DNA from: a bacterium | Lineage (GTDB): Bacteria; Hydrothermota; Hydrothermia; LBFQ01; DSFT01 | Assembly: GCA_030550205.1 (NCBI GenBank) | Contig: JAUQPS010000005.1 | Location: forward strand, 1-43,821 | Direction: 5' to 3' | Length of the DNA: 43,821 nt | In this document: one piece after another, positions 3,264 through 35,034 of the stretch | How positions within the stretch are numbered: the first letter of the stretch is position 1 | Layout: the number at the start of each line of letters is the position of its first letter | Translations under genes and position numbers: made by a program | The notes under the pieces: generated by a model | The model's input: only the letters and a program-made list of their open reading frames with translations | Databases searched by the model: none | Told to the model about the DNA's origin: nothing

Positions 3264-4794
3264 GACCAAAATTTTAAAGTTATAAATTTATTTATTATGT
3301 TATCCATTTCATTTTCTAAATTACTTATATCATTCTTATTTTTCTTATCTAAAATTTCCAAAGTAATTTTTATTATTTCATCTTTTAATTTATTTTCAAA
3401 TATCGGAATTTTTGCATTTTCAAGAAATTTTTGTGTAAATACTATGCGTCCTCCTCTTCTTCCTCCATTTTCAAGATAGTATTTTCTAAAAAAGAGCTAT
3501 TAAGATAACCAAGTAAAAAATATAAATTTTCTTCATCAAATGGTTGTATAAATAGCACATCACCTGCTGGTAATAATCCTTCTTCTCCTAAGCTAAATCT
3601 ATTATAATTATGTCTATCTAAGGTGGGCACATAAATGCGTTTTTTATTATAATTTTTTAATAAAAATTCATAGTTTCTTAAAGCTTGCCAATTAAACCAC
3701 ATCTTATTTACCAAATATCTATTTTTCATTTCTTCCTTATAAACTTCAAGTTTTAAATAAATGTTTGGATAATTTTCTTTTAAATATTCTTCACTTTTAA
3801 TGCTATCATCAATAAGAATATATTTTGTATATCCATCTACAACATATCTCTTACAATGTTTTGCTTTCACAAACTTTTTTATAAGTTTTCCTTCTTCAAA
3901 AGTAAATTTACTATCATCTTGTATTATAAATGCTTTATCAAATCCTGATACCATTCCTACACCAACTTTTGCAATTTCTTTTAATAGAATATATTTGAAA
4001 TTAGGAATATAAAAAAATAGTGAAGACCATTGATTTGTATTTGTATAATGGGGGATTATGTTATATTCAAATAAATCGTTTGAATTTTTTGTTTCTAATG
4101 AATTTTTTGCTTTTATGTATATTTCATAAGGTTTTGAATTTTTCCTCTTTATTCTTAAAAGGATTATTTTCTCTTGATTTAAGTTGAATTTTCCCTTTTT
4201 AAATTTAAATATAATTGTTTCTGGATTTTCATTATTAAAAATTCTTGCTTCATCTAAATCAATAATTATCTCTATTTTTCCATAATTAAGTATAAATTCC
4301 CTTACTATTTTTGCATAAGTGTTATAAAAAAAGGAGTAGGGGACAATGTATATAAGTTCCCCACCATTTTTTAAAAGTTGTATTGACCTTATAATAAAAG
4401 CATAATAAATATCTCCTTCGCTTGTTTTGATAATTTTTCTTACATTGTTTCGAATTTGTGTAGGTATTTGATTAAAATGAATGTATGGCGGATTTCCTAT
4501 AATTAAATCAAATTTCTCATTAAAACTATAAGTTAAGAAATCTCCCAAAATTATCTTATATTTATCTTTGAATTTCTTTTTGCATAATTCATAAAGCTCT
4601 TTATTTATTTCTATACCATAGCAATTTATATATCCTTCTTTTTCAAGCTCTTGCAAAAAAATACCTTCTCCACAACCCGTATCTAATATATTAGAATTTT
4701 TATCAACTGTTGATAACATAATCATTAACTTAGCTATTTCTGATGGGGTTTGAACAAAGCCAATTTTTTCATTTAAAATGTTATTCTTTCTCAT
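3260..4794 (-). CDS. Adenine-N6 DNA methyltransferase, Eco57I/TaqI-like, interrupted by a frameshift near 3465
   Basis: The first 450 codons encode a gamma-type N6-adenine methyltransferase: GFVQTPSEIA at the start, SAM motif I LDTGCGEGIFL near residue 38 and catalytic NPPYIHF near residue 103. The frame then ends early (TAG at 3442-3444) after an odd Glu-rich tail. If one G is added to the GG at 3465-3466, the protein continues through GGRRGGRIVFTQKFL, a segment typical of these enzymes' C-termini, to a TGA at 3260-3262, giving about 511 residues. The restored stop makes a TTGA overlap with the ABC ATPase start. Either the gene is mutated or phase-variable at the G-run, or the base is missing from the read. 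ATGA overlap joins it to the gene upstream. Confidence 0.82.
3271..3276 (-). promoter_or_regulatory. -10-like box before the znuC-like gene
   Basis: The minus strand reads CTTTAAAATTTTGGTC then TTG. TAAAAT is 7 bases before the TTG at 3263, matching other operon heads and supporting that start. The box lies inside the restored C-terminal frame of the methyltransferase gene. Confidence 0.55.
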
Positions 4795-5223
4795 GTTAGA
4801 TAAGCAATTTCGGTTTTAGTTGTATTTAAACTCTTTGTAAGGGACTTGATAACCGAATTGGTTAAGTTCATTATGAATGAATAGTAGTCAATGGGTTTTC
4901 GAAGGAAAGGATTATATTTTACCTGGAACATTGTGTTTCTTGGATTTACATAAAAATCTTCATCAATTTCTTCTAAAAGAAAGAAGTTCGATCCCCTTTT
5001 TTCATTATCAACAACAAATACTCCATAAGAAACTATCTCTTGACCACTTATTCTTTTATAAATAATTTCTTTGTCAATAGTAACTTTCTGTTTTATTCTT
5101 TGTTCTGTGAGCCCCAAATATAGTAGTAATATCATTTCGTGCATTACTATATAGATTACCGAGTTTGTTGCCATATAAGGCCTCAAACACTTCCTTAAAT
5201 ACTTCAGAAACAGTATAATCCAT
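4791..5223 (-). CDS. Putative restriction-modification partner, frameshifted at a G-run (5112-5115)
   Basis: No family is recognised. A frame starting at ATG 5223 reads sensibly for about 37 codons (MDYTVSEVFKEVFEALYG, later NARNDITTIFG) and then loses phase at a GGGG run at 5112-5115. Removing one G joins it to the frame that continues LTEQRIKQKVTIDK through FFLLEEIDEDFY to a stop giving ATGA overlap with the methyltransferase. The restored protein would be about 143 residues. The unshifted alternative, starting at GTG 5228, has an implausible Cys/Met/Leu-rich N-terminus. Position directly before a DNA methyltransferase suggests a restriction endonuclease or accessory subunit; this is inference from context only. 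Confidence 0.55.
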
Positions 5224-5224
5224 T

Positions 5225-5305
5225 TCACTTAGCGCTTTTAACAATAGGCTTTAAAACCCAGTAAAGTGCTATAAATAACAAAATTGAAAAATAAATTACA
5301 TCCAT
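5225..5305 (-). CDS. 26-residue single-span membrane peptide coupled to mnmG
   Basis: A tiny frame starts at ATG 5305-5303, sharing one base with the mnmG stop (TGATG), the classical arrangement for translational coupling. It encodes one hydrophobic helix (VIYFSILLFIALYWVL) followed by a basic tail ending KSAK, so it would insert in the inner membrane with the positive end inside. Its TGA at 5227-5225 is almost joined to the ATG of the following restriction-associated gene. The Shine-Dalgarno-like AAAGGAGT lies just upstream, inside the mnmG end. No family is recognised; the coupling and the membrane-helix composition are the evidence that it is real. Confidence 0.45.
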   Translation of the reverse strand: MDVIYFSILLFIALYWVLKPIVKSAK

Positions 5306-17905: not shown

Positions 17906-18805
17906 AAGCATTTCAATAATTTTTTTAAGTCTTAAATAATTTCTTTCAAAATCAAAAAGCTCATTAAATAAATAATCTATCTTATAATCTTCAATTTCAT
18001 TATTTTTTATAAATTCTGCCATTTGATATATATCATCAAAAATCCACTCATATTTATTTAAAATTTGTAAAATTTCAAAAACTCCACCTGCACTCTTTAA
18101 GCTTAAAACAGGAACTCCATAATATAAACTTTCTAAGGTTACATAAGAAAAAGCTTCATAATAACTTGTTATAACTACTGCTTTTGCTTTTGAAATATAA
18201 TTATAAACATCTTTTTGATAACCAAAAAATTTTATATTTTTATAATTTTTATTTTCAACCCCCAAAATCCATCCCTCATATTCTGGTAATAATTCCATTA
18301 ATTTTAAAAAATTATCTAAACCTTTAATCCAAGCAGACCTTCCAATCCATAATAATACTTTATCATTTCTTTCTCTTTTTATCTCAGGCATACTTTTAAA
18401 ATCTAAACCATTATAAATTACAAAACTATCTACATTATAAAACTTTTTTACTAAATTACTCAAAGAAAAGCTTGCACTTATAAAGCAATCAAAGTTTTTA
18501 AGCCAATTTTTAAATTTATAAAATTTATATAAGTGTATTGGATTAAATTCAAATTTATTAAATAGCATTCTTCTTGAAATTGCTCTAAGTCCATGAAAGT
18601 AATATATTTTCTTTTTATTTTTAAATGGTTTAAAATCAAAATGTTCAATATAACCATACATTACAATTGCTTTTATTTCATTTAATTTTATTGGTAATTG
18701 TTTTTGTTTTGATATTTCCCAAACTATTTCACCTTTTTTTTGAATGTTTCTTAAAAATGTTCCACTTCCACCACCTATGTTATTTATAATATGTATCACC
18801 TTCAT
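17903..18805 (-). CDS. Glycosyltransferase, GT4-like
   Basis: The 300-residue protein has two Rossmann-like halves of a GT-B enzyme. The start (VIHIINNIGGGSGTFLRN) resembles the glycine-rich acceptor-side loop of GT4 enzymes. VLLWIGRSAWIKGLDNFL near residue 149 marks the nucleotide-sugar half, and EAFSYVTLESLYYGVPVL near residue 218 is the E-x7-E donor site. It is shorter than most GT4 proteins (350-400 residues), with a compact N-terminal half. Probably a cytoplasmic enzyme of cell-surface glycan synthesis; the sugar is unknown. The ATG overlaps the Slt stop (ATGA), so it belongs to the bactofilin-Slt operon. Confidence 0.85.
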   Translation of the reverse strand: MKVIHIINNIGGGSGTFLRNIQKKGEIVWEISKQKQLPIKLNEIKAIVMYGYIEHFDFKPFKNKKKIYYFHGLRAISRRMLFNKFEFNPIHLYKFYKFKNWLKNFDCFISASFSLSNLVKKFYNVDSFVIYNGLDFKSMPEIKRERNDKVLLWIGRSAWIKGLDNFLKLMELLPEYEGWILGVENKNYKNIKFFGYQKDVYNYISKAKAVVITSYYEAFSYVTLESLYYGVPVLSLKSAGGVFEILQILNKYEWIFDDIYQMAEFIKNNEIEDYKIDYLFNELFDFERNYLRLKKIIEML

Positions 18806-20481
18806 TTGAAGTTTGAAAATATATATTTATACATAAGATAGCTTCTCATAACCCTTCTATAATAATTTCTCGTTTCTCTATATGGAATTAGCTCAAAAAA
18901 TAAGTCTGTATCATTATAATCTAAAACACTTAACCATCTTTTAACAGCATTAGGACCAGCATTATAAGCACATATTGTAAGGTTAATATCATAATTAAAC
19001 ATTTCTAAGAATTCTTTAAAGTGCATAGCTCCAATTAATAAGTTTATTTTAACATCAAAAGGTTTATATGGTAAATTTAGTTTTCTTGACCAGCGTTTAA
19101 AATCTTCTGGCATAACTTGTGCTATTCCCATAGCTCCTGCTCTTGAAACTACATTCTTATTAAACTTACTTTCTTCCCTTACAATTGCATATAATAATTC
19201 TATTTCAATTCCACTTTTATTACTAGCATTTAAAAATTCTTGAAAATATGGTGTAGGATAAGCCATAAAAATAATATCTTTTGGAATAAAAGGAGATATT
19301 AAGTTTTCAGCTAAATCAAGAGCAAGGTCATATGAGCCAATTTTATTTAACATATATATAAGATAAATTCTATTTTCTTCGTTCAAAAATCTCCAAAATT
19401 CACTTCTAAATCCAAGGATTTCTAAAATTATTGGCTTTTGATATAATTGAAATTTGCTTTCATCATAAAATGTAGTATCTATAATTTTTGGATAGAAGTT
19501 TGAATATAAAGCATAATAACCATTTGGATGAGTTTTGTAAATTTTCATTAAATAATCATTATTTCTTGTTAATTTATAAAGCCAATAATATGCTCTTGAA
19601 ATTTCAAAGTTATCATTTGTAATTTTGGGAATTTTTTCAAGGGTTATAATCGTATTTATATAATCTCTTTTAACATAATAAACAAGTGCTTTCATAAATT
19701 GAACTTCACCAATGAGTGTATCTTTTAATGTATTAAAGAATAAGTCATATCTTTTTGAAACAATTGCATTATATCCTCCAAGCCTAACCGCTATATAAGG
19801 ATTATATTCATATAAGCTATCAATAAATTCAAAAGCAGTTATTGTATCACCATATTCTAACAAATTTAATGCACATTCAAAAAAATAATCTGATTTTTTA
19901 AAATTTGTATTTTTATAATTTTTACATATCTCACTAGCCTTTTTAAAATCACTTAACTTTGATAAAGCATCTACATAAAAATAAAGTGCAGATTCTGGTT
20001 GAATTTGTTCTATTAAATCCTTATATTTCTCATTATAATATAAAATTTGTGCTTTTGTAAGTTGAGATAATTTCAACTCATTTATAGATTTATAAACTAT
20101 TTCAGAGCTTGGAAAATTATTAGCAAGCTCTAAAAGGATATTTTTGTCTTTTAAAATTGAATATAAAATTTCATAGCTTTTTGCATTAAAATAATTTTTA
20201 TATTTTAAATAAATACTTCTTAAACTATCTTTTAAATTCCTTTTGCTTAAGCTTTCAAGATACATATTTAAAATTGCTGTTATATATTGCTTTTTGGCAT
20301 TAAGTTTTATTAACTTTTCAATATCAAATTTTTTAAAATCCCTTTGATATAAAAATTCAAATACCCATTCTATATCTGGATATTTCTTCTTAAAATCAAT
20401 TAAAATTTGACTATCTGGTTTTGAGTTGTAAATTAAGGCTTTTTCTATATCTGATGGCATTTGAATTATATAGAGAATCAT
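18802..20481 (-). CDS. Soluble lytic transglycosylase-like protein with helical-repeat N-terminal region
   Basis: The 559-residue protein ends with an SLT (lysozyme-like) domain: LLYAIVREESKFNKNVVSRA with catalytic Glu437, then GAMGIAQVMPEDF and the AYNAGPNAVKRWL block. The preceding 400 residues are helical and TPR-like, as in the Slt70 superhelix. Such enzymes cut glycan strands of peptidoglycan to 1,6-anhydro ends. The N-terminal MILYIIQMPSD stretch could be a very short signal, in line with others in this window, but export is uncertain. ATGA overlaps link it to the bactofilin gene upstream and the glycosyltransferase downstream. Confidence 0.9.
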   Translation of the reverse strand: MILYIIQMPSDIEKALIYNSKPDSQILIDFKKKYPDIEWVFEFLYQRDFKKFDIEKLIKLNAKKQYITAILNMYLESLSKRNLKDSLRSIYLKYKNYFNAKSYEILYSILKDKNILLELANNFPSSEIVYKSINELKLSQLTKAQILYYNEKYKDLIEQIQPESALYFYVDALSKLSDFKKASEICKNYKNTNFKKSDYFFECALNLLEYGDTITAFEFIDSLYEYNPYIAVRLGGYNAIVSKRYDLFFNTLKDTLIGEVQFMKALVYYVKRDYINTIITLEKIPKITNDNFEISRAYYWLYKLTRNNDYLMKIYKTHPNGYYALYSNFYPKIIDTTFYDESKFQLYQKPIILEILGFRSEFWRFLNEENRIYLIYMLNKIGSYDLALDLAENLISPFIPKDIIFMAYPTPYFQEFLNASNKSGIEIELLYAIVREESKFNKNVVSRAGAMGIAQVMPEDFKRWSRKLNLPYKPFDVKINLLIGAMHFKEFLEMFNYDINLTICAYNAGPNAVKRWLSVLDYNDTDLFFELIPYRETRNYYRRVMRSYLMYKYIFSNFK

Positions 20482-22036: not shown

Positions 22037-22774
22037 TTAAATATAAACTTTTACCTTTTCTCCAAAACTTACATTTAACACTTTACTTGCATTTCCTTCA
22101 ACTATACTAATTTCCAAAAATTCATAAGAACCCTTTAAAAATACTAATTCTCCCTTCTTTGCATCACTATAAGTTCTAACTTTTTTACTAATTTTAATTT
22201 CATTAATCTCCACATATTTAAAATTCTCATTAAATTCAATGTTTGTTATCAAATTTCCAAAATCATCTACGAATACAATTTCACCAATTATATAATTTTC
22301 AAAAACTTTAACTTCTCTAAAATCTAATTTAATGATATCTTCAATAGGTTTTGCAATATCTTCTATATTATAGCCTTTTGATAATTTTGCACAAAAAGGT
22401 GCAAATACATCTCTTGCATGAAATGTATAACTTGCATTCTTTGGGATTTCTATTTCATATGCTTTGTAATTTTTCAAAAAACCAAATAATCCATTATCTG
22501 GACCTACAAAATAATAATTATCACTTTCAATAGCAATTGCCTTCCTATTTGAACCTACACCAGGATCAATAACTACTAAAAATATTGTCCCCTTTGGAAA
22601 ATACTTATATGAGCTATATAATACAAATTGACCTGCTTTTATATTAAATTTTGGAACATTATGAGTAATATCAATAATTTCAGCATTTGGATTTATTGAT
22701 TTAATTACTCCCTTTACTTGTCCTACATAAAAACTTTCTCCAAAATCACTAATAAATGCTATTTTCCTTTCCAT
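22037..22774 (-). CDS. SAM hydroxide adenosyltransferase (DUF62 SAM hydrolase)
   Basis: The 245-residue protein matches the fluorinase/chlorinase-related family that hydrolyses S-adenosylmethionine to adenosine and methionine. Diagnostic blocks are ISDFGESFYVGQVKG at the start, VVIDPGVGSNRK near residue 87 (Asp and Arg of the triad), FVGPDNGLF, HARDVFAP (His of the triad) and VDDFGNLITNI. It is not a halogenase, since the family's characteristic halide-binding insertion is not evident. The physiological purpose in bacteria is unclear. Its start overlaps the FlgT-N-like gene by 16 bases, so it is the last gene of that envelope operon. Confidence 0.9.
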   Translation of the reverse strand: MERKIAFISDFGESFYVGQVKGVIKSINPNAEIIDITHNVPKFNIKAGQFVLYSSYKYFPKGTIFLVVIDPGVGSNRKAIAIESDNYYFVGPDNGLFGFLKNYKAYEIEIPKNASYTFHARDVFAPFCAKLSKGYNIEDIAKPIEDIIKLDFREVKVFENYIIGEIVFVDDFGNLITNIEFNENFKYVEINEIKISKKVRTYSDAKKGELVFLKGSYEFLEISIVEGNASKVLNVSFGEKVKVYI

Positions 22775-23790
22775 CTTACATATATATTCATTCCTCCTAT
22801 TTCACTAATTTCAACATTTTTAAAATTACTTTTTATAATTTGGGCTATTGAAGTTGGATTTTCAGGAGTTATTAATTCTAAAATAGCATTATTTTCTAAA
22901 AATTCCCTTAAAATAATTTTATCAACCTTTCTAACATTATTAATTAGCACTTCTCTTAATTTTCCAACATCATCAAAACTAACATTATAAACATAAATTT
23001 TTACTATATTATTTTCTTGAAATTGCTTTATTGTTTTTGGTAATAATACACTAAATAATGAATCTACTAATTGATTTTTAATAGTTTGGGTTATATTTGG
23101 ATAAGATTTGTCAATTCTTGTAGAAGCTAATACTTCTGCGGATCTTGGATCAATTAATCTTGCAGATATAGAAACTTCTTTTAAATCTATATTATACCCC
23201 TCAACTTTTTTCTTATTCTCATTATATTTAGCAATTAAAATAATTTCTGCTCCCTCCCTTAATGCATATCTTGCTAATAAACTATCTTTTGCTCCTTCTA
23301 ATATAAGTCTTATCTCTTCCTTTTTTAATTTTTCTTTCAGTTTATTTTGATCTACAATTGGAAATTCCTTATCCCTAAATTTTTCAATTAAAATATCTTC
23401 TAAGAATTCCTCATTTGCAAGAATTAAAATTCTTGGTCTTTCTTTTTGTAAAATAAGAATTTTTAATGATGATAAATCATCTTCAATTTTCTTATTATCT
23501 ACAATTGCTATTATTTTTACTCTATAAAGTCCATCCTCTTGTTTTTCAGAAATAATTTTATAATTCTTAACATAGCCTTTTGATTTTGAAAGTATATTAT
23601 CTTCAATAAGATTATAATTTTCAATAATAGTTTGACTTTCAATATATGTTCCAAGTGCTTGTTCAACAGCATTTCTAAGAGCATCGGAAATTGCTCTATC
23701 TCTTGCTACATCTAAGCTAACATTATTTGTAGATGAAACTCCTTCTACAATTATACTTTTTTCTGTTTGTAAAATCAAAAAAATTAACAT
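22759..23790 (-). CDS. FlgT-N/LPP20-like envelope protein
   Basis: The 343-residue protein begins with a short hydrophobic segment (LIFLILQ) and a domain resembling the flagellar assembly protein T N-terminal region: ARDRAISDALRNAVEQALG, then IESQTIIENYNLI and SKGYVKNYKIISE. The centre (RPRILILANEEF and AEIILIAKYNE) looks like the TolB-N/CsgG-type alpha/beta fold seen in FlgT middle domains, and the C-terminus (FKNVEISEIGG) is a further small domain. No flagellar genes are present, so a flagellar role is unlikely here. A Shine-Dalgarno GGAGGT lies just before the ATG. It is the fifth gene of the cluster beginning at 26614. Confidence 0.7.
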   Translation of the reverse strand: MLIFLILQTEKSIIVEGVSSTNNVSLDVARDRAISDALRNAVEQALGTYIESQTIIENYNLIEDNILSKSKGYVKNYKIISEKQEDGLYRVKIIAIVDNKKIEDDLSSLKILILQKERPRILILANEEFLEDILIEKFRDKEFPIVDQNKLKEKLKKEEIRLILEGAKDSLLARYALREGAEIILIAKYNENKKKVEGYNIDLKEVSISARLIDPRSAEVLASTRIDKSYPNITQTIKNQLVDSLFSVLLPKTIKQFQENNIVKIYVYNVSFDDVGKLREVLINNVRKVDKIILREFLENNAILELITPENPTSIAQIIKSNFKNVEISEIGGMNIYVRWKGK

Positions 23791-23802
23791 AATTACCTCC
23801 TT

Positions 23803-24585
23803 TTAAAATAATGTTAATACAATTTTTTTGCCAAGCTCCCAAGCTTTTTTAAGCCACTTTATTTTATTTGCACTATCTTTATCAACTACAATATCCCTTC
23901 CATTTAAAACAGATTTAATTTTGATTACAAGTGGATTATCTTTAAGTTCTGGGTCATTTAATATCTCATTTAAATTTTCAACAAATTTAATAACTCTTTG
24001 AGCTTTTGGATTATTTTCATCAATAAGCCAGGCAGTATCAAAAATTAAGTTTCCATTTTCATCATAAATTTTAGGAAATAGTGATGGCTTTATATTTGTT
24101 CCTGAACCATCTAAAACAAGTGCAGAAAAGCTTGGATTATCCTTAATATCATCTAAGTTTTGTTTTTTTGTATTTTTTATAATTTCTGGAAGAATAGCAC
24201 TTACTAATCCATTATCTCCATATAAATCAACAGCAAGCTCAACTTCTACAATACCATTTTGTCTATCAATTTTAGGCTCTCCTATCATTCTTGCTCCTTT
24301 TACAATTCCATTAACCCTACTAACTATAAGATCACTCTTTAACATATAATCTTCAACAATTGTTTCAGAATTTATATAAACACCCTTTATTGTTTCAAGT
24401 AAGTTCCTTTGAGCGACAACAACTGCTACTCTTTGCGCTTTCAAAATTTCAGCATTTACGTTCTTTGCATTTATATCAAAAACTCCATATCCCTTAGCAG
24501 TTACAATCCCCTTTGACCAATCTACTTTCCCATCCTTTATTGTTTCAACTGCCTTGCTCATTTGAAAAAATAAAAATAACATCAT
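23803..24585 (-). CDS. LPP20-like exported protein
   Basis: The 260-residue protein opens with a minute hydrophobic segment (MMLFLFF), then WSKGIVTAKGYGVFD and a repeated Ala/Arg-rich helix, AQRVAVVVAQRNLLETIKGV, leading to VNGIVKGARMIGEPK. That combination is the signature of LPP20-family proteins. There is no Cys for lipidation, so it is probably periplasmic or held by the short N-terminal segment. The C-terminal 60 residues are charged and helical. The GGAGG that overlaps the stop of the upstream gene is its Shine-Dalgarno. Adjacent genes encode CsgG/LpoB-like lipoproteins and a FlgT-N-like protein. Confidence 0.72.
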   Translation of the reverse strand: MMLFLFFQMSKAVETIKDGKVDWSKGIVTAKGYGVFDINAKNVNAEILKAQRVAVVVAQRNLLETIKGVYINSETIVEDYMLKSDLIVSRVNGIVKGARMIGEPKIDRQNGIVEVELAVDLYGDNGLVSAILPEIIKNTKKQNLDDIKDNPSFSALVLDGSGTNIKPSLFPKIYDENGNLIFDTAWLIDENNPKAQRVIKFVENLNEILNDPELKDNPLVIKIKSVLNGRDIVVDKDSANKIKWLKKAWELGKKIVLTLF

Positions 24586-24588
24586 GGC

Positions 24589-25125
24589 TTAACCTCCTTC
24601 TAATTTTGACATAACTTCATCTATTGCACTTTTTATACAATCATCTAAATTATAAGCTTTTGAGCTACCTGAATTTGCATATATAACTTTATATGTCTTC
24701 AAGTCTATAATTTTAAAGCTAATTGTTATTTCAAATACATCTTCATCTTTACAAATAATTTCATGATGAAATATTACTGGAATGCAAACTTTTTCCTTTT
24801 TCTTAACAAAATCATCAACATTATATATTCCCAATAGTTCAGCATTTATTACTTTTCCAAATTCCTCAAATGATAATGTATCATTTGTAAGTGTAATTTC
24901 ATTTAATACTTTTTCAAGCTCTTTCCTTTCTATTACTTCAAATATTTTAAGTTCTAATAGTTTTTGAGCAATTTCATTTTCAACTATATTTAAAATTGAG
25001 CTATGATTTTTTGTTGATGATATTAAAGCAATTCTATAATTCTTATTATTTTCTAAATAATTTAATTTTTTTGTTTTTGTTTGACTTGCACAACCTAACA
25101 CTAATAATAAAATTAAATATTTCAT
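24589..25125 (-). CDS. CsgG/LpoB-like lipoprotein (second of two)
   Basis: A 178-residue lipoprotein with Cys at residue 12 (LVLGCAS). The mature part follows the CsgG/LpoB alpha-beta pattern: YRIALISS, then a helix ending LKIFEVIERKELEKVLNEI, then FGKVINAELLGIYNV and the strand ITISFKIIDLKTYKVIYANS. It is far shorter than the pore-forming CsgG and lacks its transmembrane hairpins as far as can be seen, so an LpoB/PBP-activator-like periplasmic role is more plausible than secretion. It is a diverged paralogue of the preceding gene, with which it shares an ATGA overlap. Confidence 0.75.
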   Translation of the reverse strand: MKYLILLLVLGCASQTKTKKLNYLENNKNYRIALISSTKNHSSILNIVENEIAQKLLELKIFEVIERKELEKVLNEITLTNDTLSFEEFGKVINAELLGIYNVDDFVKKKEKVCIPVIFHHEIICKDEDVFEITISFKIIDLKTYKVIYANSGSSKAYNLDDCIKSAIDEVMSKLEGG

Positions 25126-25643
25126 TTCTTAAAAGTTTGTTTTAAAGTATGTAATGAATTGCTAACAGCCATATCTATAATCGTAATTTTATCATCATAT
25201 CCTTCACCTCTTCCCCTTCCAATATAGGCTATTTCTCCCGTTTGAACATTTATTATTTTAATTGAAATTACAATTTCACGAAAACCATCCATCTCCTGTT
25301 TTGCTGAAATTACTTCATAACTTGCTATTAAATCTGCACCTGTTAATTTACCAAATTCCTTTGCTGTTGAAATATCTACAAGTCCTGAATACTGAAAATT
25401 CAATTCTTTTAATATCTCCTCAACTTTTTCTCTTTCAACAATAGTAAAATTCTTAATCCTTGATAATTCTAAATAAAATGCTTCATAAACTTTTCTTAAA
25501 TCATCTTCATTCAAATAATTACTTTTTAATTGTGGAATTATTGATACTTTATAATTTTTTGAATAATCTAAATTCACATTTGAACCTTTTGCATAATAAC
25601 CAGAAACACAACTACTTAAAAACAAAAGAATAATTTTCCTCAT
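25122..25643 (-). CDS. CsgG/LpoB-like lipoprotein (first of two)
   Basis: A 173-residue lipoprotein starting at ATG 25643 (MRKIILLFLSSC, Cys at residue 12). I prefer this ATG over the one two codons upstream because it overlaps the preceding stop as ATGA and lies about 7 bases after AGGAGG, whereas the upstream ATG almost touches that site. The fold is CsgG/LpoB-like: YKVSIIPQL, a helix ending IKNFTIVEREKVEEILKEL, then FGKLTGADLIASYEV and VISIKIINVQTGEIAYIGRG. As in the neighbouring paralogue, CsgG pore hairpins are not evident. It sits between the DUF4476-like gene and its paralogue. Confidence 0.75.
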   Translation of the reverse strand: MRKIILLFLSSCVSGYYAKGSNVNLDYSKNYKVSIIPQLKSNYLNEDDLRKVYEAFYLELSRIKNFTIVEREKVEEILKELNFQYSGLVDISTAKEFGKLTGADLIASYEVISAKQEMDGFREIVISIKIINVQTGEIAYIGRGRGEGYDDKITIIDMAVSNSLHTLKQTFKK

Positions 25644-26614
25644 TTCCATCCCTCCTTTTCAACATTACCACTATCATAATTTTCAATCCATTCCCTTATA
25701 TTTTCTTTTGAAAGGGATGAAGTAAATTTTGAGAAAATTTGATGTATATTTTCCTTATCTATAATTTTTGGATAAACAATTTTTACAACCTCCTCTTTAT
25801 TAAGCTCAGAAGTAAATTGGTCAAGTATCTCTTCTAAATGTCTTACAAGAAAATAATTTTTACTAACAGCGGTTTTTAAAATTTCTATTCTTGTAAATTC
25901 AGATATTTCACTTTTTAGATTTTGAATAAGGCTTTTGAAACTTTCTTCACTTATTGGTTTTAAAGTGGGTTTTGAAATTGGAGCCAGATTTTTTACATAT
26001 AATATATTCTCATAATTTTTCTTTACTTCTACCTTTCCTTCCCACTTACTACTTTCATTTGTTACAATAACTTTATAATATCCACTTTCATTTAATGATT
26101 TGCTTGTTGGAATATCACTTTTATGAATAGGGACTGTGGAATTTTCTTTATAAATTTCAGCATTTGCTCCTTTTGGTTCTACTATTTTTAAAACTGTCTC
26201 TGATGATGGTTTTCTTATAATATAATAATCATTATATTCTTCTTTTTCTTCCTTTGTAGATAGTGATTTTACATAAAGAGTATATTCATACCCAGATTTA
26301 ATTTCAAATTTCTTAGACCAGCTATAATTTTCTTTACTTACAATAATTCTATAAAATCCTTCATCACGCGAAGATACTTTAGTTTTTGTATATGTTGTAG
26401 GAATATCAGCTTTATAAATTGGATTTGGATTATTTTCTTTTTGAATTTCAACAATAGCTCCTTCTGGTTGAAGAATTCTTATTGAGATAGTATATTTCTT
26501 ACCTTTCTTCCACAACCATAAGTAATCATTTGTTTCTTCCTTTCCTTCATAATTAGATTCTTCTTGAGATGAATATATTTCTATACTCTGAGAAATAAAG
26601 AATAAAGTTAACAT
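25640..26614 (-). CDS. Exported protein with two internal repeats and a C-terminal DUF4476-like domain
   Basis: A 324-residue protein with a very short hydrophobic start (MLTLFFIS). Two beta-rich repeats follow, one with PEGAIVEIQKENNPNPIYKA at about residue 55 and one with PKGANAEIYKENSTVPIHKS at about 150, each ending in a ...EYTLYVKSL or ...ENILYVKNL strand. The last 100 residues (FKSLIQNLKSEISEFTRI, then NYFLVRHLEEIL, KIVYPKIIDKENI) resemble DUF4476 domains of Bacteroidota. It heads a five- or six-gene envelope operon. A TAAAAT box lies 8 bases before the ATG in the 21-base gap after nusB, and the stop overlaps the next gene as ATGA. Confidence 0.72.
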   Translation of the reverse strand: MLTLFFISQSIEIYSSQEESNYEGKEETNDYLWLWKKGKKYTISIRILQPEGAIVEIQKENNPNPIYKADIPTTYTKTKVSSRDEGFYRIIVSKENYSWSKKFEIKSGYEYTLYVKSLSTKEEKEEYNDYYIIRKPSSETVLKIVEPKGANAEIYKENSTVPIHKSDIPTSKSLNESGYYKVIVTNESSKWEGKVEVKKNYENILYVKNLAPISKPTLKPISEESFKSLIQNLKSEISEFTRIEILKTAVSKNYFLVRHLEEILDQFTSELNKEEVVKIVYPKIIDKENIHQIFSKFTSSLSKENIREWIENYDSGNVEKEGWK

Positions 26615-26635: not shown

Positions 26636-27127
26636 TCAAACCTTTAAACCTTTTACAATTCCATCTAATATTGCATTTATAAGTTTAACTGCCTCCTGGG
26701 AAACGAAATAATCTCCTATACTTAAAGCTTCTGAAATTATTACTTTATAAGGGGTATTTAATGCTAATAGTTCAGAGACAGCGGTTTTTAAAATTGACTT
26801 TTCCAACAAAAATATCCTTTCATAATCCCAATCTCCTTTAATATTTTCTCTTAAAATCATCTCAATTTTTTCCTTATTTTCTTTATAGCTATTTATAATT
26901 GCTTTTGAAAAATTTAAAATTTCATCCCAATTCTCCAAGTCTTTTATAAATTTTTCCCTTATTTTTTCTTTCTTAATTTCATTTATTATAGACATAAAAT
27001 ATTCTTTTTTCATCCTTGAAATACTTTCAAATACTTCATCTATATTTAAATTCAATAATTCTGCATTATATATTGTTTCAACGACAATAGCCCTCGCAAG
27101 TCTTCTGCCATGAAAAGGATAAATCAT
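26636..27127 (-). CDS. nusB: Transcription antitermination factor NusB
   Basis: The 163-residue all-helical protein matches NusB, which binds boxA RNA with NusE for rRNA antitermination. Blocks: GRRLARAIVVETIYNAEL at the N-terminus (the Arg/Ala-rich RNA-binding helix), then ERIFLLEKSILKTAVSELL near residue 105, TPYKVIISEALSIGDYF near residue 125 and a C-terminal INAILDGIVKGL. The middle helix segment is longer than in E. coli. It is preceded by a small membrane-protein gene with a 3-base gap, so the two are cotranscribed. Its end is followed by the promoter of the envelope operon. Confidence 0.93.
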   Translation of the reverse strand: MIYPFHGRRLARAIVVETIYNAELLNLNIDEVFESISRMKKEYFMSIINEIKKEKIREKFIKDLENWDEILNFSKAIINSYKENKEKIEMILRENIKGDWDYERIFLLEKSILKTAVSELLALNTPYKVIISEALSIGDYFVSQEAVKLINAILDGIVKGLKV

Positions 27128-33022: not shown

Positions 33023-34027
33023 TTACATATAAGTATTCAAATTTATAACATGGCCTTTTAAATGTGATACAGGTTTTACAGATGTAATTATAAATTGTAA
33101 GTTCATATCTTTAACACTATCAAAAAATGATTGAAGTTTATATTCATCTAAAACATTAAAAGGATCATCAAAAATTACAATAGGTTCTATATCTTTTGTA
33201 GATTTAATTAATTTAATCATAGCAATTGCAAGATCAAGGAAAATTTTTCTTCTTTCACCTTCTGAAGCAAAAATTTTCGCATTATGCTCCTTATAATAGA
33301 AATTATAATCATCTCTATGAGGACCTACTATACTAAATCCCTTTTCCATCTCCACTTCTAAAAATTCATCAAAAGATTTATCTTTTAAGGAATTGTAATA
33401 ATCCATTTTAACATCCTTATCTATTTCATTTATAAGGCTATTTAACTTTTTAATATATTCTTCACGCATTTTTATAAGGTATTGTGCATATTGTTCTAAT
33501 TGTTTATTCCAGACGGATACATCACCTTTTTGTTTTAATGCTTCATTTTTTTGCAATAATATCTTTCTATATTTATAAAGATTTGAATAATATTCATAGT
33601 TTAGAGTAGAGAAGAACCAATCAAAAAATTTTCTTCTCATACTTGGAGTTTGGTCAATTAAAGTATAGTTATTTGTGTAAAATGTTAAAATTGGAAATTC
33701 TTTAATAAGATGTGAAAACAATTTAACTTTTTTACCATTTAAAGTTATAGTTTTTAATCCTCCTTTTTGATATGTTATAAGTATGTCATTTTCAATTAGA
33801 TTTTGGATTTTTGCTTTTATTGAAAATCCATTCTCATTAAACTTAATTAGGTGTTCGTCTTTTACTTTCCTAAAAGATTTAGGAGTAGAGATATAGCTAA
33901 TTGCCTCAATAATGGTGGTCTTTCCAGTTCCATTTTTACCAATAATGAAGTTTATTCCATCATGGAAGTTTAACTTTATATAACTAAACTTTTTAAAGTT
34001 TATAAGCTCAAGCTCTTTTATCCTCAT
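33023..34027 (-). CDS. RecF-like ATPase, downstream copy of a tandem pair
   Basis: From ATG 34027 the protein has 334 residues. It shows the RecF/SMC-type ATPase layout: KELELINFKKF and Walker A GKNGTGKTTIIEAISYI at the N-terminus, then RRKFFDWFFSTLNYEYY, the RecF-like VGPHRDDYNF, signature SEGERRKIFLDLA and Walker B IVIFDDPFNVLD. RecF loads RecA at gaps with RecO and RecR. The longest frame adds 11 codons upstream, but a TAAAAT box ends 7 bases before ATG 34027, which fixes the start. It is clearly related to the next gene along its whole length, so one ancestral gene was duplicated. Which copy, if either, is the working RecF cannot be decided. Confidence 0.82.
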   Translation of the reverse strand: MRIKELELINFKKFSYIKLNFHDGINFIIGKNGTGKTTIIEAISYISTPKSFRKVKDEHLIKFNENGFSIKAKIQNLIENDILITYQKGGLKTITLNGKKVKLFSHLIKEFPILTFYTNNYTLIDQTPSMRRKFFDWFFSTLNYEYYSNLYKYRKILLQKNEALKQKGDVSVWNKQLEQYAQYLIKMREEYIKKLNSLINEIDKDVKMDYYNSLKDKSFDEFLEVEMEKGFSIVGPHRDDYNFYYKEHNAKIFASEGERRKIFLDLAIAMIKLIKSTKDIEPIVIFDDPFNVLDEYKLQSFFDSVKDMNLQFIITSVKPVSHLKGHVINLNTYM

Positions 34028-34034
34028 ACTGAAA

Positions 34035-34040
34035 ATTTTA
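34035..34040 (-). promoter_or_regulatory. -10 box of the downstream recF-like gene, containing the upstream recF-like stop codon
   Basis: The minus strand reads CCTTTAAAATTTTCAGT then ATG 34027, a 7-base spacer. The TAA at 34038-34040 ends the upstream recF-like gene. This spacing fixes the start. Confidence 0.66.
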
Positions 34041-35027
34041 AAGGTTAATAATATGGGCATTAATTTTAATTGGTCTTATAGAGGTTATTATTACTTGTAA
34101 GTTTAATTTTTCAATTTTATTTAATAAATCAATTAGTTCATTTTCATCTAAAACACTAAATGGGTCATCAAACATTATAATAGGTTCTTCATTTTTAATA
34201 ATTTTACTTAATTTTATCATAGCAAGCGAAAGCTCTAAGAAAATTTTCCTTTTTTCACCCTCTGATGAAAAAAACTTTGAATCATAGTTTTTATAATAAA
34301 ACTTATAATCATCTCTGTGAGGTCCTATTATACTAAATCCTCTTTTTATCTCAAATTCTAAAACACTTTCAAATGTTTTATCTTTTAAAGAATTTACATA
34401 TTCAATTTTTATATTTTGGTCTTGTTCTTTTATAATAGAATTTAATTTTTCAATGTATTCTTCCCTTTTTTTGATTATGTAATTTGAAACTTCTTTTAAT
34501 TGTCTATTCCATATTAAAACATCACTTTTTAGTTTTAAGGCTTTATTTTTTTGTTCTAAAATTTTCTTATATTTATAAAGACTTACAAAATATTCATAAT
34601 CCAATATAGAAAAGAACCAATCAAAAAATTTTCTTCTTATTTCTGGGGATTGTTCTATTATATTGTAATTATTTGAATGGAATGTTAAAACTGGAAATTT
34701 TTCAAAAAGCTTTAAAAATGTCTTAACTCTTTTATTGTCAAGTGTTATTATCTTAAATCCATTTTTCTTATAAGTTATTAAAACATAATGTTCTGTTAAG
34801 TTAGAAAATATTGCTTTTACTGAAAATCCATTCTCATTAAACTTAATTAAGTATTCATCCTTTACATTTCTAAAAGAGCGAGGAATAGAAATATAACTAA
34901 TTGCTTCAATAATAGTAGTTTTTCCAGCTCTATTTTTACCTATAATTAAATTGATATTTTCAGAGAATTGAATTTTTAAGTGGGAGAATTTTTTAAAATT
35001 GATAAGTTCAAGTTCTCTTATTTTCAT
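34038..35027 (-). CDS. RecF-like ATPase, upstream copy of a tandem pair
   Basis: The 329-residue protein from ATG 35027 parallels its downstream neighbour: RELELINFKKF, Walker A GKNRAGKTTIIEAISYI, RRKFFDWFFSILDYEYF, IGPHRDDYKFYY, signature SEGEKRKIFLEL and Walker B IIMFDDPFSVLD. Both copies have SEGE and FDDP where typical RecF has SQGQ and LDDV, so the divergence preceded duplication. The start is fixed by a TAAACT box 7 bases upstream. The longest frame adds two codons (TTG GCT), which would place the start inside that spacer. Its TAA at 34038 is part of the -10 box of the second copy. It diverges from a barrel-protein gene. Confidence 0.82.
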   Translation of the reverse strand: MKIRELELINFKKFSHLKIQFSENINLIIGKNRAGKTTIIEAISYISIPRSFRNVKDEYLIKFNENGFSVKAIFSNLTEHYVLITYKKNGFKIITLDNKRVKTFLKLFEKFPVLTFHSNNYNIIEQSPEIRRKFFDWFFSILDYEYFVSLYKYKKILEQKNKALKLKSDVLIWNRQLKEVSNYIIKKREEYIEKLNSIIKEQDQNIKIEYVNSLKDKTFESVLEFEIKRGFSIIGPHRDDYKFYYKNYDSKFFSSEGEKRKIFLELSLAMIKLSKIIKNEEPIIMFDDPFSVLDENELIDLLNKIEKLNLQVIITSIRPIKINAHIINL

Positions 35028-35034
35028 AGCCAAA

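Follow-up and report, generated by a model that had tools for sequence, protein, structure and literature searches.

A candidate flagellum-independent relative of the flagellar H-ring and basal-disk gene set in a WOR-3 bacterium

Periplasmic rings of the FlgP/FlgT type have so far been discussed as add-ons of the flagellar motor. In Vibrio fischeri the genes for FlgP, FlgO and FlgT are neighbours with the consecutive tags VF_1883-1885 (PMC6375700), and in the basal disk of Campylobacter jejuni (FlgP, FlgQ) each ring has a continuous sheet built by a beta-hairpin that is inserted in FlgP between the SHS2 helix and the strand after it; according to the authors, ring formation in the FlgP family goes with this insertion (PMC12222027). 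In Tp0624 of Treponema pallidum, domains 1 and 2 (D1-D2) are described as a tandem unit that had not been characterised before and whose domains occur only together; an OmpA-like domain follows (PMC5104382). Here we describe five co-directional genes on the minus strand (22759-26614) of a 43,821-nucleotide stretch of DNA, hereafter the window, that is contig C161 of a draft WOR-3 genome (1.89 Mb in 210 contigs, 86% complete; 25.6% GC). They encode a DUF4476 protein, two short lipoproteins related to CsgG and LpoB, an LPP20/FlgP-like protein and an FlgT-like protein. With about as much confidence as doubt we propose that this block is a flagellum-independent relative of the flagellar H-ring and basal-disk set (FlgO/FlgP/FlgT type) and that its products form rings under the outer membrane. 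The families are already known; no description of the flagellum-free combination was found in the literature searched.

The five open reading frames overlap or are separated by gaps of at most 12 nt, and a gene for an S-adenosylmethionine (SAM) hydrolase is next. The genes and their order in the original prediction, made from the sequence alone, are confirmed by these coordinates, and the family names by Pfam, with calls judged against the curated cut-offs and, for the LPP20-like protein, through its relatives. Export signals or lipoboxes were found for the five proteins, which had all been predicted to be exported.

The LPP20/FlgP-like protein (23803-24585, minus strand, 260 residues) combines an SHS2-like N-terminal domain with a C-terminal domain resembling D2 of Tp0624. 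It has no Pfam match of its own, LPP20 (PF02169) included; LPP20 is matched by 8 of 12 close relatives and by 34 of 74 wider relatives (E <= 0.001). A profile built from the relatives retrieved C. jejuni FlgP (9hmf, 1.1e-13), Vibrio FlgP (8z5n, 4.5e-6) and Tp0624 (5jir, 3.8e-5) among solved structures. The FlgP-type chains (9hmf, others, and 8z5n of the Vibrio LPHT ring) are matched over approximately residues 31-129, and Tp0624 by the C-terminal half. The window sequence alone matches 9hmf at 1.3e-8, its best single-sequence match in the PDB. Searched with the AlphaFold2 model (pLDDT, the predicted local distance difference test, 82.5), Foldseek found just two PDB entries with E <= 0.001, Tp0624 as the top structural match (5jir, E 1.8e-6 over 283 columns) and FlgP (9hmf, template-modelling (TM) score 0.70 by target length). 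As evidenced by profile, single sequence and fold, an FlgP-type SHS2/LPP20 domain is thus present, and the profile match on the D2 region together with the 283-column fold match places the D1-D2 tandem unit in the same chain. The OmpA-like third domain of Tp0624 is absent from the model, in which the chain stops at residue 260 after the D2-like domain, and the protein looks like a stand-alone version of the D1-D2 unit. FlgP of C. jejuni, a small lipoprotein, belongs to a flagellar motor; the window protein is longer, has no lipobox in this genome and is accompanied by an FlgT-like partner. Two other WOR-3 proteins (G041:C10:33270-33620 and G046:C8:57842-58183, at loci L065 and L066) match the LPP20-like profile in the D2-like C-terminal half only, so that D2 may also exist where no FlgP-like domain can be recognised, in disagreement with the older survey of Tp0624.

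The FlgT-like protein (22759-23790, minus strand, 343 residues) consists of an FlgT_N domain that exceeds the Pfam cut-off, a middle domain of the CsgG/TolB_N/PelC type and a C-terminal domain. Its AlphaFold2 model (pLDDT 90) retrieved FlgT first (3w1e, 1.1e-11), followed by the Vibrio LPHT ring chain 8z5n_0 (2.8e-10), which was taken as FlgT from its chain length and the match itself; GNA1162, CsgG and PelC came next, all on the middle domain. Whole-chain TM-scores to FlgT are low, at about 0.28, and the likeness to FlgT therefore lies in domains in order and not in overall shape. A weak NCBIfam match to Leptospira LipL46 is far under its cut-off (33.8 bits versus 400) and aligns only about the first half of the protein. 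Over their N-terminal domains the LPP20-like and FlgT-like proteins are paralogous, and a query with one retrieves the other in the same genomes. The earlier labels LPP20-like and FlgT-N-like hold at the level of families and can be sharpened: the two proteins are related to the ring formers FlgP and FlgT and have paralogous N-terminal domains.

Both proteins carry an element of 27 residues between a helix and a strand, encoded on the minus strand at 24307-24387 in the LPP20/FlgP-like gene and at 23575-23655 (LGTYIESQTIIENYNLIEDNILSKSKG) in the FlgT-like gene. Its length is exactly 27 in 74 of 74 LPP20-like and in 53 of 53 FlgT-like relatives. The LPP20-like element aligns without gaps to C. 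jejuni FlgP, and at the sequence level the element of both proteins corresponds to the FlgP segment that holds the ring-forming hairpin.

Lipoprotein 1 (25122-25649, minus strand, 175 residues, lipobox LSSC) exceeds the Pfam cut-offs for both CsgG and LpoB, although the LpoB equivalog TIGR02722 scores only 36.5 bits against a cut-off of 110.55. Lipoprotein 2 (24589-25125, minus strand, 178 residues, VLGC at the acylated cysteine) exceeds the cut-off for CsgG and is 29% identical to lipoprotein 1. Orthologues of lipoprotein 1 stand in the same place in three related genomes, G028, G003 and G002, and the extra copy was not seen in G028 or G003. The CsgG matches cover model positions 38-95 and 43-93 of 210, in agreement with the earlier statement that these proteins are too short for the CsgG pore. 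A curli pore was accordingly rejected for them on the grounds of the partial match, in which the full domain with its pore hairpins is not found. A genome-wide CsgG search yielded one match over the cut-off, the window's own, and no wider search for curli genes was made; within the window the original prediction had noted none. The first gene of the block (25640-26614, minus strand) encodes an exported protein of 324 residues with two PEGA/Ig-like repeats, for which the PEGA match is weak, and a C-terminal DUF4476 domain (PF14771, 62.3 bits versus a cut-off of 22.5, E 5.5e-17). Its orthologues lead the cluster in G028 and G003. An alignment of the family gave nothing at a useful E-value against solved structures.

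The association of these families was analyzed in the window's genome and 59 WOR-3 relatives from 25 families. The FlgT-like and LPP20-like proteins are found in exactly the same 15 of the 60 genomes, which belong to six families; two further genomes match just the C-terminal half of the LPP20-like profile. Among the relatives, the presence of one protein follows that of the other in 14/14 versus 0/45 cases (p = 8e-14), and by family in 6/6 versus 0/19 (p = 6e-6). Note that Fisher tests ignore kinship and that the family-level figures are the safer ones; the co-inheritance of the pair is not due to chance. CsgG-family proteins occur in 13 of the 14 pair-positive relatives, the lone exception being a genome that is 57% complete, and in 4 of the 45 pair-negative ones. 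For DUF4476 the genome-wide association is loose (9/14 versus 13/45, p = 0.02) and not significant by family.

For a view beyond WOR-3, 84,980 species genomes were scanned with one conserved LPP20-like motif, the resulting counts not being a measure of prevalence. This yielded 80 loci, assigned by record title to WOR-3, Bacteroidota, Deltaproteobacteria, Nitrospirota, KSB1, Calditrichota and Myxococcales. A contig scan of the genomes with the single FlgT-like sequence did not find relatives, whereas the conserved LPP20-like alignment did find loci. In 52 of the 80 an FlgT-like gene is encoded no more than 7 kb away in the same direction, among them 11 of 11 loci in WOR-3 outside family f2, 20 of 20 in Bacteroidota and 12 of 20 in Deltaproteobacteria. 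The predicted conservation of co-occurrence and order of the LPP20-like, FlgT_N-like and CsgG/LpoB-like genes is thus borne out by the exact pairing in WOR-3 and by the loci in other phyla. DUF4476 is present in a third gene in 17 of the 20 Bacteroidota loci, and in one Cytophagales genome (L168) FlgT_N and DUF4476 are fused in a single protein, both over their cut-offs. The predicted membership of DUF4476 is accessory: it joins the set in part of WOR-3 and in Bacteroidota. In Deltaproteobacteria, Nitrospirota, KSB1 and Calditrichota the LPP20-like gene is commonly followed by a TPR-SLH lipoprotein (33 loci), and genes for FecR-domain (20 loci), PEGA and CsgG-like proteins lie close by, all annotated by Pfam on one representative per family. 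A similar TPR-SLH protein is found in the WOR-3 families f19 and f25. An even sample of 148 Bacteroidota genomes contained only the genome on which it was centred and one weak partial match; a broad prevalence in this phylum was therefore rejected, and the set is rare and patchy there.

Several of these loci show further features. Near full-length CsgG proteins at L042:10287-11201 and L175:13570-14466 carry a C-terminal FlgT_C-like stretch (3.6e-5 and 0.0056, both below the cut-off), as if in these genomes the FlgT domains were split over two genes. Among lipoproteins related to those of the window, one at L041 gave a weak match to FlgO below the cut-off. In four deltaproteobacterial loci (L131, L140, L141, L178) long proteins are encoded beside the LPP20-like gene, of about 900 residues in L140, L141 and L178, and one of this set combines a GNA1162-like domain with a right-handed beta-helix.

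Comparison of flanking genes shows that the block comes and goes. In a genus-mate (G001, locus L195) a P-type ATPase gene, a PH-like gene and nusB are directly followed by an inverted SAM-hydrolase gene, and all five genes are missing. In the sister genus, G003 has a GlyA-like gene, the DUF4476, CsgG-like, LPP20-like and FlgT-like genes, the last split over two contig ends, and a convergent gene. G002 shares these flanks (the convergent gene is 51% identical) and has the DUF4476 and CsgG-like genes, but the pair is missing. Gene trees join the window's proteins with those of G003 and G028 (support 97/98 in the LPP20-like tree) against taxonomy: G028 is from a different family, whereas f2 falls within the same order. 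Trees and presence or absence together fit horizontal transfer; differential loss of old copies may also produce the pattern.

In line with the original prediction, neither flagellin nor FliF was found anywhere in the draft assembly, which is 86% complete. FliF occurs in two of the 60 WOR-3 genomes and in none of the 15 with the pair. Of 50 named genomes positive for the operon, 40 lack FliF, and most of the ten carriers are Deltaproteobacteria. The block is thus independent of flagella, which most of its hosts lack. The original prediction had proposed to check whether its presence goes with motility or the diderm state of the hosts. It does not follow motility, and within the phylum it cannot track the diderm state because all WOR-3 genomes searched carry Omp85. 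The cultured WOR-3 strain sy37 is a diderm that bears pili and in which motility was not observed (PMC12285271).

On the proposed reading, the two SHS2 proteins would after export polymerise side by side via their putative hairpins, forming a single ring or disc, or several, beneath the outer membrane. The CsgG/LpoB-like lipoproteins, as the analogue of FlgO, would fix the ring to that membrane at its inner leaflet. The DUF4476/PEGA protein, and in other phyla the TPR-SLH, FecR and PEGA proteins, could serve as exchangeable adaptors tethering the ring to peptidoglycan or a client. Most likely, the structure would act as a scaffold or collar, either stiffening the outer membrane or providing a seat for another envelope machine. 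The original prediction of a self-contained periplasmic complex linking the outer membrane to the wall or to stress sensing remains plausible in its first part by analogy with partner domains, the SLH domain of the lipoprotein in 33 loci and the OmpA-like domain of Tp0624; for stress sensing no support was found.

A number of observations weigh against this reading. The monomer models assign low confidence to the 27-residue element and do not show it as a clean hairpin, which is the reason why we call the hairpin putative. Some proteins with SHS2 domains, such as Helicobacter pylori Lpp20 and dodecin, are not known to assemble into rings of this kind (PMC12222027). No FlgT_C match was obtained for the window FlgT-like protein, nor is FlgT_C one of the families that its relatives match, and the C-terminal domain of the window protein (approximately residues 261-340, beta-alpha-beta-beta-alpha-beta) differs from FlgT_C, so that of the N, M and C architecture of FlgT the first is recognised by Pfam, the second by fold, and the third is missing. 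The window lipoproteins have no Pfam match to FlgO (PF17680). Linkage is broken in the majority of Nitrospirota loci, which often have a second LPP20-like gene instead of FlgT (L148, L149, L155, L156, L159, L161, L166 and L171, in several of which a transglutaminase-like gene lies between the two), and in the neighbouring WOR-3 family f2. Scattering of the genes in relatives, named beforehand as a finding that would speak against a common system, is thus seen in part, yet in f2 both genes are always kept together in the genome. In comparison with the Vibrio H-ring, the FlgP-like and FlgT-like proteins match by domain and fold, but the host has no flagellum, the FlgP-like protein has an added D2-like domain and the set has the extra DUF4476 gene. 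Because flagellum, FlgO and FlgT_C are all lacking, we do not class the set as an H-ring, although it may work like one nonetheless.

Other explanations share part of this evidence. With its fold match to the PelC dodecamer, CsgG and GNA1162, the FlgT-like middle domain could form, with the two small lipoproteins of the same fold or family, a PelC/CsgG-type collar for export. In this reading a ring of lipoproteins would control the passage of a polymer or protein through an outer-membrane channel, and the SHS2 proteins would act as guides in the periplasm. Near full-length CsgG proteins in the same neighbourhoods of Deltaproteobacteria and related loci are in line with this. However, the pore part is missing from the window CsgG-like proteins, cognate export genes were not seen, and no beta-barrel, secreted substrate or polysaccharide gene is prominent among the families that recur in the 80 neighbourhoods; we regard such a collar as unlikely, if the foremost of the alternatives. 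Somewhat more doubtful is a regulator of peptidoglycan synthesis, in which the LpoB-like lipoproteins activate a class A penicillin-binding protein (PBP), with the SHS2 proteins as partners of this PBP in the periplasm. The Pfam LpoB match and the SLH partners in other phyla, which point to the wall, agree with it, and so does a class A PBP (GT51) in the same genome at G000:C93. The reported lack of PBP1 therefore holds within the window but not genome-wide, and was rejected as an argument. This gene is not linked to the block, class A PBPs are equally common in WOR-3 relatives with and without the pair (12/14 versus 41/45), and the LpoB equivalog stays far under its cut-off.

Homology to FlgP and FlgT, together with FliF surviving in two WOR-3 genomes, could also indicate the remnant of a lost flagellar H-ring, reused or decaying. 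We disfavour this as improbable: neither FliF-positive genome has the pair, and the module is intact, well conserved, present in Bacteroidota too, and gained or lost as a block. Least probable of all would be an operon shared by chance, in which the SHS2 and TolB_N-like proteins of the periplasm, though paralogous, serve separate purposes. The broken linkage in f2 and the weak genome-wide tie of DUF4476 fit such an arrangement, but the co-occurrence is exact even where the genes are unlinked, and synteny across phyla, the fusion and the pair-wise presence or absence speak against it.

The idea of a ring set that is independent of flagella can be taken one step further. Tentatively, the module might be an outer-membrane ring system that is complete in itself, moves horizontally and, directly or through an ancestor, supplied the FlgP and FlgT that flagellar motors recruited for H-rings and basal discs. 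A gene set that recurs with both components in diderm phyla lacking flagella would imply that the unit which builds rings exists in its own right, and how H-rings and basal discs arose would become a testable question. The set also offers a first frame for the unexplained families LPP20, FlgT_N/DUF6175, DUF4476 and Tp0624 D1-D2. In the literature searched, DUF6175 is not named and DUF4476 is named only in connection with animals.

The surroundings of the block in the window are as follows. The SAM hydrolase gene (22037-22774, minus strand, both SAM_HAT domains over the Pfam cut-off) overlaps the FlgT-like gene by 16 nt, and nusB (26636-27127, minus strand) borders, on the upstream side, the block that was gained or lost relative to G001. 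Both were rejected as members of the module, since they are not conserved neighbours and are present without it; the hydrolase, which the original prediction had noted after the five genes, is not near the module in G003 or G028 and occurs without it in G001 and G002. Downstream of the hydrolase lie genes for phosphoglycerate kinase and then bactofilin. The five genes are thus embedded in a longer co-directional run, from the PH-like gene and nusB to pgk and the bactofilin gene, and the proposal that they stand under one promoter was not confirmed. A scan of the AT-rich region gave 56 promoter sites versus 43.5 +/- 6.6 in shuffles, and therefore no specific promoter can be named.

Several predicted exported proteins start with a very short hydrophobic stretch of about 8-10 residues (for example MMLFLFFQ, MLIFLILQ and MMWVFVLSA). 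Such starts are found in the window at 25640-26614, 23803-24585, 22759-23790 and 18802-20481, and also in relatives (L044-L048). In the window cases checked, an upstream in-frame start codon is absent, and signal peptides in WOR-3 may be unusually short. Elsewhere in the window, a DNA methyltransferase-like open reading frame (450 residues) directly follows one of 145 residues at 3442-5228, possibly a truncated restriction-modification gene, and two similar RecF-like genes stand in tandem at 33023-34060 and 34038-35033, with a near-identical ELELINFKKFS...GKNxxGKTTIIEAISYIS start in both.

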